Assembly (NCBI RefSeq): GCF_015694425.1
Contig: NZ_JADQDN010000001.1
Span: 682,001-746,000 of the forward strand
Direction of reading: 5' to 3'
DNA length: 64,000 bases
Source of the DNA: Microvirga terrestris
GTDB taxonomy: Bacteria > Pseudomonadota > Alphaproteobacteria > Rhizobiales > Beijerinckiaceae
The notes under the pieces are model-generated. The model had not been told where the DNA came from and searched no databases. It worked only from the letters and a program-made list of their open reading frames with translations. The first letter of the stretch is position 1; each line of letters opens with the position of its first letter. A program made the position numbers and the translations under genes. Shown piece by piece: positions 53,287 to 56,142 of this stretch.

Positions 53287-53397
53287 GGCCGCCGGCCCTC
53301 GCGCTGTGTTCCTTGTATATTCTAGCGCGGAATGACCTTAGGCGAAGAGAGCCTGCTTGCCGCCGTTTCCCGGAGCGCCTATAGCCATCGCTTTAAG

Positions 53398-54345
53398 ATG
53401 ACAGACGCCCCCCGATCCGTTTTTCCCCACCGGCATCTCCTCGGCATCGAGGGGCTGTCTCCCTTGGACATTCAGGCGCTGCTCGACCTGGCCGACGAAC
53501 AGGTCGAGGTGAGCCGGCAGATCGAGAAGCGGAAGACGACCCTCCGGGGCCGGACGCAGATCAACCTCTTCTTCGAGGCCTCCACCCGCACGCAGTCCTC
53601 CTTCGAGATCGCCGGCAAGCGGCTCGGCGCCGACGTGATGAACATGCAGGTCGGGTCGTCCTCGGTGAAGAAGGGCGAGACCCTGGTCGACACGGCCGTG
53701 ACGTTGAACGCCATGCGGCCCGACATCATCGTGGTGCGCCATCATTCGGCGGGCGCCGTGCATCTCCTGGCCCAGAAGGTGGACTGCTCGGTGGTGAATG
53801 CCGGCGACGGCGCCCACGAGCACCCGACCCAGGCGCTCCTCGACGCGCTCACCATCCGGCGCAACAAGGGCCGCATCGAAGGCCTCACGGTCGCGATCTG
53901 CGGCGACATCCTGCATTCGCGGGTGGCGCGCTCCAACATGATCCTGCTCGCCGCCATGGGCGCGCGGGTGCGTCTCGTCGCGCCGTCGACCCTGATCCCG
54001 CCCGGGATTGCACGGCTCGGCTTCGAAACCTTCACCAGCATGGAGAAGGGATTGAGGGACGCCGATATCGTCATGATGCTGCGCCTGCAGCGCGAGCGCA
54101 TGAACGGCTCCTTTGTGCCCTCCGTGAAGGAGTATTTCCGCTTCTATGGGCTCGACCAGGAAAAGCTCAGCTTTGCCAAGCCTGACGCGCTCGTGATGCA
54201 TCCTGGTCCCATGAACCGGGGCGTCGAGATTTCCTCTGATGTAGCCGACGGCGCGCAGTCGCTCATCCGCGAACAGGTCGAGATGGGCGTCGCCGTGCGC
54301 ATGGCGGTGCTGGAGGCTCTGGCGAGCCATCTGCCGAATCGGTGA
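53398..54345 (+). CDS. pyrB: Aspartate carbamoyltransferase catalytic chain
   Basis: This 315-residue enzyme condenses carbamoyl phosphate and aspartate in pyrimidine synthesis. The carbamoyl-phosphate motif is [13 protein letters not shown], and further conserved blocks are [36 protein letters not shown] and [20 protein letters not shown]. The ATG at 53398 ([20 protein letters not shown]) fits homologues; an in-frame start at 53332 is unlikely. Normally pyrC follows immediately; here a DUF559 element separates them. Confidence 0.95.
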
Positions 54346-54356
54346 GGAGAAAAGAA

Positions 54357-54404
54357 CCCTCTCCCCTCTGCGGGAGAGGGTGGCCCGAAGGGCCGGGAGA
54401 GGGG
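54357..54404 (+). repeat. Left inverted-repeat arm of DUF559 element
   Basis: The 48-bp arm lies 11 bases after the pyrB stop. Its first 28 bases and last 11 bases are exact reverse complements of the right arm (54781-54832). It also folds on itself: CCCTCTCCC with GGGAGAGGG, and GGCCC with GGGCC around GAA, so it is a REP-like double hairpin. Confidence 0.9.
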
Positions 54405-54406
54405 CC

Positions 54407-54850
54407 GTGGACACAACGCGCAAGAACCAAGTCGCTCCAAAACTCCGCTCCTTTGCCAAGGAGCAGCGATCGATCCCGACCCGTGCGGAGGATCTGTTCT
54501 GGCAACAGGTACGCGCCGGCCGCTTTCACGGCTACAAGTTCAAGCGCCAGGTGCCGATTGCACCATACATTGTCGATTTCCTCTGCGCTGAGGCCAGGGT
54601 AATCGTGGAACTGGATGGGGCTCCTCATGAACGGCCGGAGCAGCGGGCGCACGACGAACGACGCGACGCCTTCCTACGAGGCCAAGGCTTTCGCGTCCTT
54701 CGCTTTTCCAACGACCTGATTCTAGGCAACGGCAATCTGGTTCTTGACTCTGTGCGCCAAGCGATTGAAGCCGAACTCCGCCCCTCTCCCGACCTGCTTC
54801 GCAGGCCACCCTCTCCCGCAGAGGGGAGAGGGCAAGAAGGTGCATCATGA
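54407..54850 (+). CDS. DUF559 (Vsr-like PD-(D/E)xK) nuclease-fold protein inside inverted repeats
   Basis: The 147-residue product has the DUF559 core: LRSFAKEQRSIPTRAEDLFW, then FHGYKFKRQVPIAPYIVDF and EARVIVELDGAPHERPEQRA, whose D...ExD and H fit the Vsr-like endonuclease fold. HDERRDAFLRGQGFRVLRFS follows. The GTG at 54407 lies right after the left repeat arm; the ORF is open further upstream to GTG 54380 inside the arm. The C-terminal ~20 residues are encoded by the right arm itself (PSPDLLRRPPSPAEGRG). Its TGA overlaps the pyrC ATG (ATGA). No methylase is adjacent, so a repair or mobility role is as likely as restriction. Confidence 0.88.
   Translation: MDTTRKNQVAPKLRSFAKEQRSIPTRAEDLFWQQVRAGRFHGYKFKRQVPIAPYIVDFLCAEARVIVELDGAPHERPEQRAHDERRDAFLRGQGFRVLRFSNDLILGNGNLVLDSVRQAIEAELRPSPDLLRRPPSPAEGRGQEGAS
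54781..54832 (-). repeat. Right inverted-repeat arm of DUF559 element
   Basis: The 52-bp arm mirrors 54357-54404: read on the minus strand, it starts with the same 28 bases and ends with the same CGGGAGAGGGG, differing only in the central loop (CTGCGAAGCAG in place of CCGAAGGG). It ends 14 bases before the pyrC start codon. Confidence 0.9.
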
Positions 54851-56142
54851 CCGCTGAACGTCCCCTGCTGCTGAAAAACGCCCGCCTCATCGACCCCGCC
54901 AGCGAGCGCGAGGAGCGTGGCAGCGTGCTGGTGCGCGATGGCGTGATCGAGGCTCTTGGCCCGCAGGTCGCCGTTTCCGACGACGTCCAGGTGATCGATT
55001 GCGGAGGCCAGGTGCTGGCCCCCGGCCTCATCGATATGCGCGCCTTCATAGGCGAGCCGGGCGGACCCTATCGCGAGACCCTGAAGAGCGCTGGCGAGGC
55101 GGCGGCGGCGGGCGGCGTCACCACCGTGGTGTCGATGCCGGACACGAGCCCGGCCCTCGACGATCCGGCTGTGATCGACTTCATCGTGCGCCGAGCCCGT
55201 GACACCTCCATGGTCAATATCCTCCCGGCTGCGGCCCTCACGAAGGGGTTGCAAGGTGCCGAGATGGCGGAAATCGGTCGTCTGAAGGAGGCCGGCGCCA
55301 TCGCGTTCACGGACGGGGGGCGCTCCGTCACCAACGCCCAGGTGATGCGCCGCGCGCTCACCTATGCCCGCGACTTCGACGCGCTGATCATCCACCATGT
55401 TGAGGATCCGGATCTCGTCGGTCAGGGCGTGATGAACGAGGGTGAGTTCGCCTCGCGGCTCGGGCTGCCGGGCATCCCGCGCGAGGCCGAGACGGTGATG
55501 CTGGAGCGCGACATCCGTCTCGTGCGCCTCACGGGCGGACGCTACCACGCGGCCATGATCTCCTGCGCCGACTCGGCCGAGATCGTGCGCACTGCCAAGG
55601 CGAAGGGGCTGCCCGTCACCTGCGGCGTGTCCATCAATCATCTGGCGCTGAACGAGAACGACATCGGCGATTACCGCACCTTCCTGAAGCTCTCGCCGCC
55701 GCTGCGCCACGAGGATGACCGGCAGGCGATGATCGAGGCGCTGGCGGACGGCACCATCGACGTGATCGTCTCGGATCACAATCCACAGGATGTTGAGAAC
55801 AAGCGCCTGCCCTTCGCCGAGGCGGCTGATGGCGCCGTGGGGCTTGAGACCCTGCTCTCGGCGGCCCTGCGCCTCGTCCATGCGGATCGCATCTCCCTGC
55901 CGCGACTGCTGCGGGCTTTGTCCACCAAACCTGCGGAAATCCTAGGATTGCCCGGCGGGCGGCTCGCGGTCGGTGCGCCGGCCGACCTGATCGTGTTCGA
56001 CCCGGACGCGCCGTATGTACTCGACAAGCGCCAGCTCAAGTCCCTGTCCAAGAACACGCCCTTCGACGAAGCGCGCCTTGAAGGCCAAGTGAGCATCACG
56101 ATGGTGGCGGGCCGGGTGGTTTTTCAGCGCGAAACGATGTAA
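54847..56142 (+). CDS. pyrC: Dihydroorotase-like protein, probably non-catalytic (PyrC'/PyrX type)
   Basis: The 431-residue amidohydrolase-fold protein is colinear with class I dihydroorotases, but metal-binding residues are lost. The motif that should read DxHxHxR before EPG reads GLIDMRAFIGEPG, so both HxH histidines are gone; the Asp-site motif reads SDHNPQ. In other bacteria such pseudo-dihydroorotases bind PyrB and are required for aspartate carbamoyltransferase assembly, with the active dihydroorotase encoded elsewhere; that role is inferred here. Its ATG overlaps the DUF559 stop, and plsY follows after 10 bases. Confidence 0.88.
   Translation: MTAERPLLLKNARLIDPASEREERGSVLVRDGVIEALGPQVAVSDDVQVIDCGGQVLAPGLIDMRAFIGEPGGPYRETLKSAGEAAAAGGVTTVVSMPDTSPALDDPAVIDFIVRRARDTSMVNILPAAALTKGLQGAEMAEIGRLKEAGAIAFTDGGRSVTNAQVMRRALTYARDFDALIIHHVEDPDLVGQGVMNEGEFASRLGLPGIPREAETVMLERDIRLVRLTGGRYHAAMISCADSAEIVRTAKAKGLPVTCGVSINHLALNENDIGDYRTFLKLSPPLRHEDDRQAMIEALADGTIDVIVSDHNPQDVENKRLPFAEAADGAVGLETLLSAALRLVHADRISLPRLLRALSTKPAEILGLPGGRLAVGAPADLIVFDPDAPYVLDKRQLKSLSKNTPFDEARLEGQVSITMVAGRVVFQRETM

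Follow-up and report, generated by a model that had tools for sequence, protein, structure and literature searches.

The locus described here raises the question of why pyrB and pyrC, neighbours in most relatives, are separated in a Microvirga genome by a small nuclease gene lying between inverted repeats, and whether gene and repeats together constitute a mobile unit. The window, the 64,000-nucleotide stretch of DNA that was analysed, comes from a genome of 4.2 Mb and carries an arm, a DUF559 gene and an inverted arm at 54357-54832, in the gap between two genes that we take, by their protein families, to be pyrB and pyrC (Table 1). We think it probable that this segment is an old copy of a small mobile unit, and that DUF559 is the missing partner of the BoxC repeats.

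Table 1. Features in and around the gap between pyrB and pyrC (window coordinates).
Feature	Coordinates	Strand	Pfam
pyrB, aspartate carbamoyltransferase, upstream host gene	53332..54345	+	OTCace_N, OTCace
Left arm: intrastrand triplex (BoxC/TM) motif with internal second hairpin	54357..54405	+	
DUF559 nuclease gene, 147 aa from GTG 54407; mechanical ORF from 54380	54407..54850	+	
Right arm: left-arm motif in inverted orientation; codes for the C-terminal end of the nuclease	54780..54832	-	
14-nt spacer, presumed pyrC ribosome-binding sequence (role inferred)	54833..54846	+	
pyrC, dihydroorotase-like, downstream host gene	54847..56142	+	Amidohydro_1, DHOase

A preliminary description of this DNA had proposed a single DUF559 gene between two arms, with its C-terminus encoded by the right arm and its stop codon overlapping the pyrC ATG, and the reading frame bears this out: the product matches DUF559 (PF04480) with an E-value of 3e-34 (117.5 bits against a curated cut-off of 20.6), and the nuclease stop and the pyrC start share the tetranucleotide ATGA at 54847-54850. 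The distance from the right arm to the pyrC start is 14 nt in all seven unit alleles, the present one included. The nuclease likely starts at the GTG directly behind the left arm, where G019 and G021 have an ATG at the matching position, and under that start the left arm is non-coding. The pyrimidine tract of this arm is outermost, and its last purine tract (GAGAGGGG), directly 5' of the presumed start codon, looks like a candidate ribosome-binding site for the nuclease.

The two arms are true inverted repeats, the earlier counts of 28 outer and 11 inner bases becoming 29 of 29 complementary positions in the outer repeat (54357-54385 and 54804-54832) and 14 of 15 in the inner one (54391-54405 and 54780-54794); when both flanks were shuffled 200 times the longest common inverted run was 10. 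Folding with DNA parameters gives -16.2 and -14.5 kcal/mol (z -2.3 and -1.5), with 3 and 14 of 200 shuffles folding as well, which is modest taken alone. Across an alignment of nine arm rows, one of them with a one-base typing error in the loop, the outer hairpin is invariant and the second hairpin is variable with its pairing kept through two-sided changes; three pairs have double changes (matched by 8 of 500 shuffles), and the covariation score is matched by none of 500. The order within an arm is CCCTCTCCC - loop - GGGAGAGGG - hairpin - GGGAGAGGGG, i.e. a pyrimidine tract followed by its complement and then by a third purine tract, a layout by which the arm is classed as a G/C-rich intrastrand triplex motif, formerly BoxC or PIT. 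Both arms of the unit pass a scan for this Y-R-R motif (8-nt tracts with one mismatch each, loops of up to 10 and up to 40 nt, the third R tract mirroring the R tract), and their type, A, is one of several (A to E) in Microvirga.

E. coli has been known to carry BoxC or triplex repeats since the 1990s; they have 23 copies in MG1655 and occur in more than 260 genomes, and Holder et al. 2015 (PMC4666352) state that no mobility-providing activity was found around the E. coli motif sites. The definition given there has loops of 1-6 nt, a limit that the internal hairpin of the Microvirga arms exceeds, and the published in vitro triplex formation is for the E. coli motif and not for the Microvirga arms; the arms were compared with the published E. 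coli sequences by eye. An Rfam search of 54000-55200 gave no match up to an E-value of 1. The description of the arms as REP-like double hairpins stands for the fold and for the second hairpin, which keeps its pairing, and falls for the affiliation: they are BoxC/triplex motifs and not RAYT-type REPs, the latter being rejected because the genome of the unit (G000) has no match to the Y1/RAYT transposase (PF01797). A comparison by eye was also made with the CGTC repeats, which predominate in alphaproteobacteria and are described as not associated with transposase genes (PMC3733652).

The protein itself is predicted to be a Vsr-like nuclease of the PD-(D/E)XK type. Residues conserved in the domain among 30 diverse DUF559 copies (E18, D47, E58, D60 and H64) are all present in the pyrB-pyrC copy, which thus retains the conserved E, D and ExDGxxH pattern. 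By profile the closest solved chain is 3hrl, an endonuclease-like protein (E 7e-38) whose aligned stretch is identical to the protein of a gonococcal locus (L327), and also among the closest is 3r3p, a mobile intron protein (E 6e-6) which we take to be I-Bth0305I. A Pfam scan at E 0.001 returned DUF559 and a sub-cutoff match to MTES_1575, with no match to the Vsr family (presumably PF03852), and neither these matches nor NCBIfam, where DUF559 falls below the equivalog cut-off, indicate a known transposase. Of the PADLOC defence models DpdF alone was matched, and only in part, over 64 of its 1078 positions (E 1.4e-5). The E. coli relative YcjD has been treated as a PD-(D/E)XK member, and its profile finds Vsr (PMC1189080).

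Adjacency of pyrB and pyrC had been regarded as the normal state, and an empty site was expected in relatives. Among 38 junctions read from 48 genomes, 23 have a gap of 6-14 nt and one a gap of 48 nt, so adjacency holds in most relatives; the unit is present in seven, a remnant with the right arm in one (G013), a single hairpin in two (G017 and G028) and other sequence in four. We read the single hairpins, for which the automatic labels were empty and TM, as scars. Three junctions (L030 in G023, L038 in G012 and L035 in G015) have 253-385 nt of other sequence between pyrB and pyrC, with no triplex arms; insertion at this junction seems to have been tolerated more than once.

Mean divergence at fourfold sites is 0.39 for the DUF559 gene, 0.35 for pyrB and 0.43 for pyrC, and of 21 pairs compared, the DUF559 gene has diverged less than pyrB in 7 and less than pyrC in 16. 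Recent horizontal spread of the pyrB-pyrC unit was considered and is unsupported, its divergence being like that of its neighbours. The holders are scattered on the pyrB tree (seven changes for seven rows), which is poorly resolved, with 8 of 35 branches starred. Judged by these divergences the unit entered the pyrB-pyrC gap long ago, has diverged along with its neighbours and shows no sign of recent movement, and a single old insertion followed by losses or by replacement with an empty allele fits best, leaving the abundance of clean junctions unexplained.

The central prediction, that nuclease and arms travel together, is borne out by units at different loci. Genome G029 has one copy between glyQ and glyS (L087) and another in front of a permease-like gene (L068), these and the pheT-like names used below being presumed from the sequence of the neighbours. 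The two are identical at 420 of 494 positions (85%) over the block including both arms, whereas the flanks agree at 88 of 199 and 105 of 233 positions, the value for a shuffled flank being 43%. The same is seen between different genomes, in L093 and L086 (unit 404/495; flanks 101/240 and 111/236) and in L082 and L068 (unit 373/493; flanks 105/240 and 113/241); L073 and L084 have the right arm in common and not the left. Homology between loci starts and ends at the arms, which shows, as far as alignments can tell, that the block moves arm to arm. The boundary of the unit carries terminal inverted repeats, and no target-site duplication is visible at pyrB-pyrC or in the G029 pair, where the flanks have diverged.

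In a tree of 68 Microvirga proteins, built on few columns, arm type largely tracks the protein clade rather than the locus. Two protein clades are found in the glyQ-glyS gap, mostly each with its own arm type, and one clade occurs at two loci; the exception is a group of five C-clade copies in this gap with a C-type right arm and a left arm of another kind. Left and right arms within a unit have a mean similarity of 0.65, against 0.32 between units. Arm and protein similarity are correlated (Mantel r 0.68 with n 88, and r 0.42 with n 44 outside the genus; neither value was reached in 2000 permutations), the correlation being weak for distant proteins (r 0.21 and 0.13), and part of it is shared ancestry.

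The alternative that fares best against these observations, although we hold it unlikely, is that a homing endonuclease invades triplex motifs, so that the arms are its target and homology and the motifs spread by other means such as replication slippage or template switching. The presence of the mobile-intron protein 3r3p among the closest solved relatives would suit such an origin, as would the single hairpin retained in scars, the two protein clades at glyQ-glyS and the occurrence of different arm families at one site across species, which is expected if a cut motif is repaired from another motif. It accords less well with the end of unit homology at the arms and with the gene-free pyrB-pyrC junctions, which are mostly short, clean and motif-free (23/38), so that a pre-existing motif at this site is not apparent.

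The preliminary description had named two outcomes that would count against a unit: the gene at this junction in every relative, with diverged arms, and DUF559 genes elsewhere that never have the arms. Neither is seen, since not all relatives have the gene at pyrB-pyrC and most other DUF559 copies have one arm or more. The Microvirga sample comprises the 69 DUF559 matches with E-values up to 2e-13 from the set of 48 genomes. Both arms are present in convergent orientation at 44 of the 69, and any motif within 150 nt of the domain at 66; windows shifted by 600-900 nt gave 0/271 and 22/271. Three copies have no motif, seven at a pheT-like locus have an upstream motif only, and four (Y, Z) have a downstream motif only. 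The pheT-front clade, in seven genomes (L044, L045, L047, L050, L053, L059 and L075), with a motif upstream and none downstream in the scan, is possibly a domesticated or decayed form.

Across Pseudomonadota, 61 of 249 genomes yielded 137 DUF559 matches, and 70 of these (30 loci plus 40 chosen without seeing the flanks) were examined. Both arms, convergent, were found at 32 and any motif at 59, against 0/278 and 14/278 in shifted windows, and a GIY-YIG control from the same 249-genome draw had the motif at none of 27 loci (those with full flanks among 30). When the 139 loci are pooled, the 100 nt directly upstream contain 87 plus-strand motifs and the 100 nt directly downstream 94 on the minus strand, compared with a background of 0-3 motifs per strand per 100 nt at more than 400 nt from the gene. 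Named loci outside Microvirga have both arms in 13 of 74 cases and any motif in 29 of 74 (shifted windows 0/273 and 11/273), with examples in Sphingopyxis, Blastomonas, Methylobacterium, a betaproteobacterium and Doudnabacteria. In plasmid records of Deinococcus and two cyanobacteria motifs adjoin a DUF559 gene in an orientation that is not uniform, and four phage records contain DUF559 matches (E 8e-12 to 6e-7).

The arms also occur without the gene. An exact hairpin pattern with a 5-nt loop matched in just 5 of 48 genomes, because the loop of the pyrB-pyrC arm has 6 nt, and was replaced by a covariance model. With this model A-type arms were found at E 1e-4 in 36 of the 48 Microvirga genomes, up to at least 68 in one of them (G007, weaker scores only); the counts are lower bounds because 121 candidates were scored per genome. 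Gene-less two-arm copies of about 123 bp occupy dozens of places among those listed, eight candidates being scored per genome. The intergenic site of one such pair, followed through 30 loci, has both A-type arms in eight, both arms of another family in five, one arm or disturbed arms in eight and no motif in eight (a single or degraded hairpin persists in three of these), with one unreadable; depending on the species this one site thus carries an A-type pair, a D-type pair or no motif. Eight genomes hold the A-type gene, seven at pyrB-pyrC plus G005 with a 52%-identical relative elsewhere, and they carry more A-type arms than the 40 non-holders (p 0.003, or p 0.006 minus their own arms; the counts are again lower bounds). 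Ten of these 40, the remnant carrier G013 among them, have at least ten A-type matches, so the repeats can persist without a resident gene. The earlier proposal of a mobile or formerly mobile unit thus draws support from the empty sites, the agreement of arm type with protein clade, the G029 pair and the dispersed gene-less pairs.

It is distinctly improbable, in our judgement, that the arms are instead regulatory or terminator elements of a chromosomal repair gene with a Vsr-like role in mismatch repair, and not mobile ends. The DUF559 protein VsrA of Caulobacter causes an SOS response in cells without a cytosine methyltransferase and is discussed as a mismatch repair protein in PMC12907096, and the Microvirga copies keep the same loci across the genus and show old divergence, all of which would suit a repair gene. 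Such a gene does not account for one arm-gene-arm block at two loci of G029 with unrelated flanks, for dispersed arm pairs without a gene or for the lack of motifs at GIY-YIG loci. We give still less credence to the motifs as mere fragile sites, where replication stalls and DUF559 genes accumulate as insertions are tolerated: a link between triplex motifs and instability has been described for E. coli (PMC4666352), yet matched inverted arms on both sides, arm types that follow protein clades and boundaries running from arm to arm are left unexplained. That a RAYT (Y1 tyrosine transposase) moves the arms as ordinary REPs, and that a DUF559 gene came to lie between two of them by chance, is scarcely credible despite the REPIN-like two-arm architecture, as PF01797 is absent from the source genome and matched in just 6 of 48 Microvirga genomes, and the DUF559 association is far above controls.

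Under the preferred reading, in which DUF559 gene and arms form a mobile unit, the recurrent packages of gene and repeat may mean that the DUF559 family spreads the repeats. We infer that the protein nicks or cuts at an arm, which it would recognise as a folded (hairpin or triplex) single strand, for example at replication forks. Host repair would then either place a copy of the unit, or of an arm pair, elsewhere or delete it and leave a single hairpin. Deletion between the pyrimidine tracts would generate hairpin scars like those at pyrB-pyrC junctions and in E. coli 536. The working mode would resemble that of REP-RAYT/REPIN systems or of a homing endonuclease, and the enzyme is not related to RAYTs.

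The DUF559 gene of E. coli, reached via matches in the plasmid collection, is ycjD, located between sapF and fabI; of 5426 complete genomes, 3364 cover at least 80% of a query made of ycjD plus its downstream region. In K-12 (L337, NC_000913.3 1349500-1353500) a BoxC copy starts 167 nt behind ycjD, and by position it is no. 9 of the published table (PMC4666352). By eye, the end of ycjD in strain KE47 (L326) reads as a right-hand BoxC arm, which the scan missed because one tract contains a G; a left arm is not recognisable at E. coli ycjD. A clean empty site was sought and none was found, as the four examined strains without ycjD have efflux genes there, given as the eef operon in PMC12817139. 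At alx-sstT, strain 536 has a BoxC pair with an internal deletion that leaves a hairpin; no clean empty site was found for this pair either, a second strain having other sequence. Other motif places are more numerous in rows with ycjD than in rows without it (39 against 21 of the 60 listed from 5105 records, p 2e-7), a link that is suggestive at most because the rows, belonging to lineages, are non-independent and 329 of the 5426 genomes have no match.

REP-RAYT/REPIN systems consist mostly of vertically kept single genes framed by inverted palindromes, together with dispersed, non-autonomous copies of two palindromes. The DUF559 unit is alike in having a mostly vertically kept gene framed by inverted palindromes and dispersed short-spacer pairs. 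It differs in encoding a DUF559 nuclease where those systems have a Y1 (HUH) transposase, and in that the palindromes are triplex motifs. IS elements and MITEs have terminal inverted repeats with one gene, plus short derivatives without a gene. These traits are shared by the DUF559 unit, which has no classical transposase or recombinase and no target duplication that could be seen. Vsr-fold homing endonucleases such as 3r3p have a nuclease domain related to the DUF559 protein by profile, and the lifestyle of a small single-gene selfish element is a plausible analogy; no intron or intein is seen in the DUF559 unit, which has inverted triplex ends and many gene-free junctions without a motif.

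The closest resemblance in the arms is to BoxC/PIT/TM_ECO (PMC4666352), which likewise has a pyrimidine tract, a complementary purine tract and a third purine tract, occurs as single copies and inverted pairs, is intergenic and undergoes deletions that may leave a hairpin. That element is reported there without a mobility gene, whereas the Microvirga motifs frame a nuclease gene, and several arm types differ from it in that the two purine tracts are separated by a second hairpin. The domain of the pyrB-pyrC nuclease is also that of Caulobacter VsrA and E. coli YcjD, and the ycjD gene lies near a BoxC copy; neither protein is described as part of a mobile unit in the accessible portions of PMC12907096 and PMC1189080.

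We found no open-access literature linking DUF559 with BoxC or triplex repeats; the working mode proposed here would resemble that of REPIN-RAYT systems. Whether DUF559-triplex units are a distinct class of mobile element, present in several phyla and the source of BoxC/TM repeats, with ycjD as the resident or relict enzyme in E. coli, we regard as evenly balanced; proof that the nuclease moves the arms would make the units a class of their own. DUF559 would then be a second, unrelated solution to the role that RAYTs play for REPs, and a substrate is proposed for a large family still named a domain of unknown function. The origin of the BoxC repeats becomes open to direct tests in E. coli K-12, whose genome has both ycjD and 23 copies of the repeat.

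Three further arrangements of repeats were observed near DUF559 genes. In Legionella and relatives (L165, L174, L179, L182 and L194) the inverted repeats that frame the gene are very long (scores 66 to 111); they contain a CCCTCTCC tract and are not flagged by the strict motif scan. In N. gonorrhoeae (L327, locus positions 2001-2697) three inverted pairs of triplex motifs with a spacing of 281 nt lie downstream of DUF559. In L308, L309 and L315 the loop of the outer triplex hairpin contains long inverted sequences, which by eye are like other alphaproteobacterial palindromic repeats.
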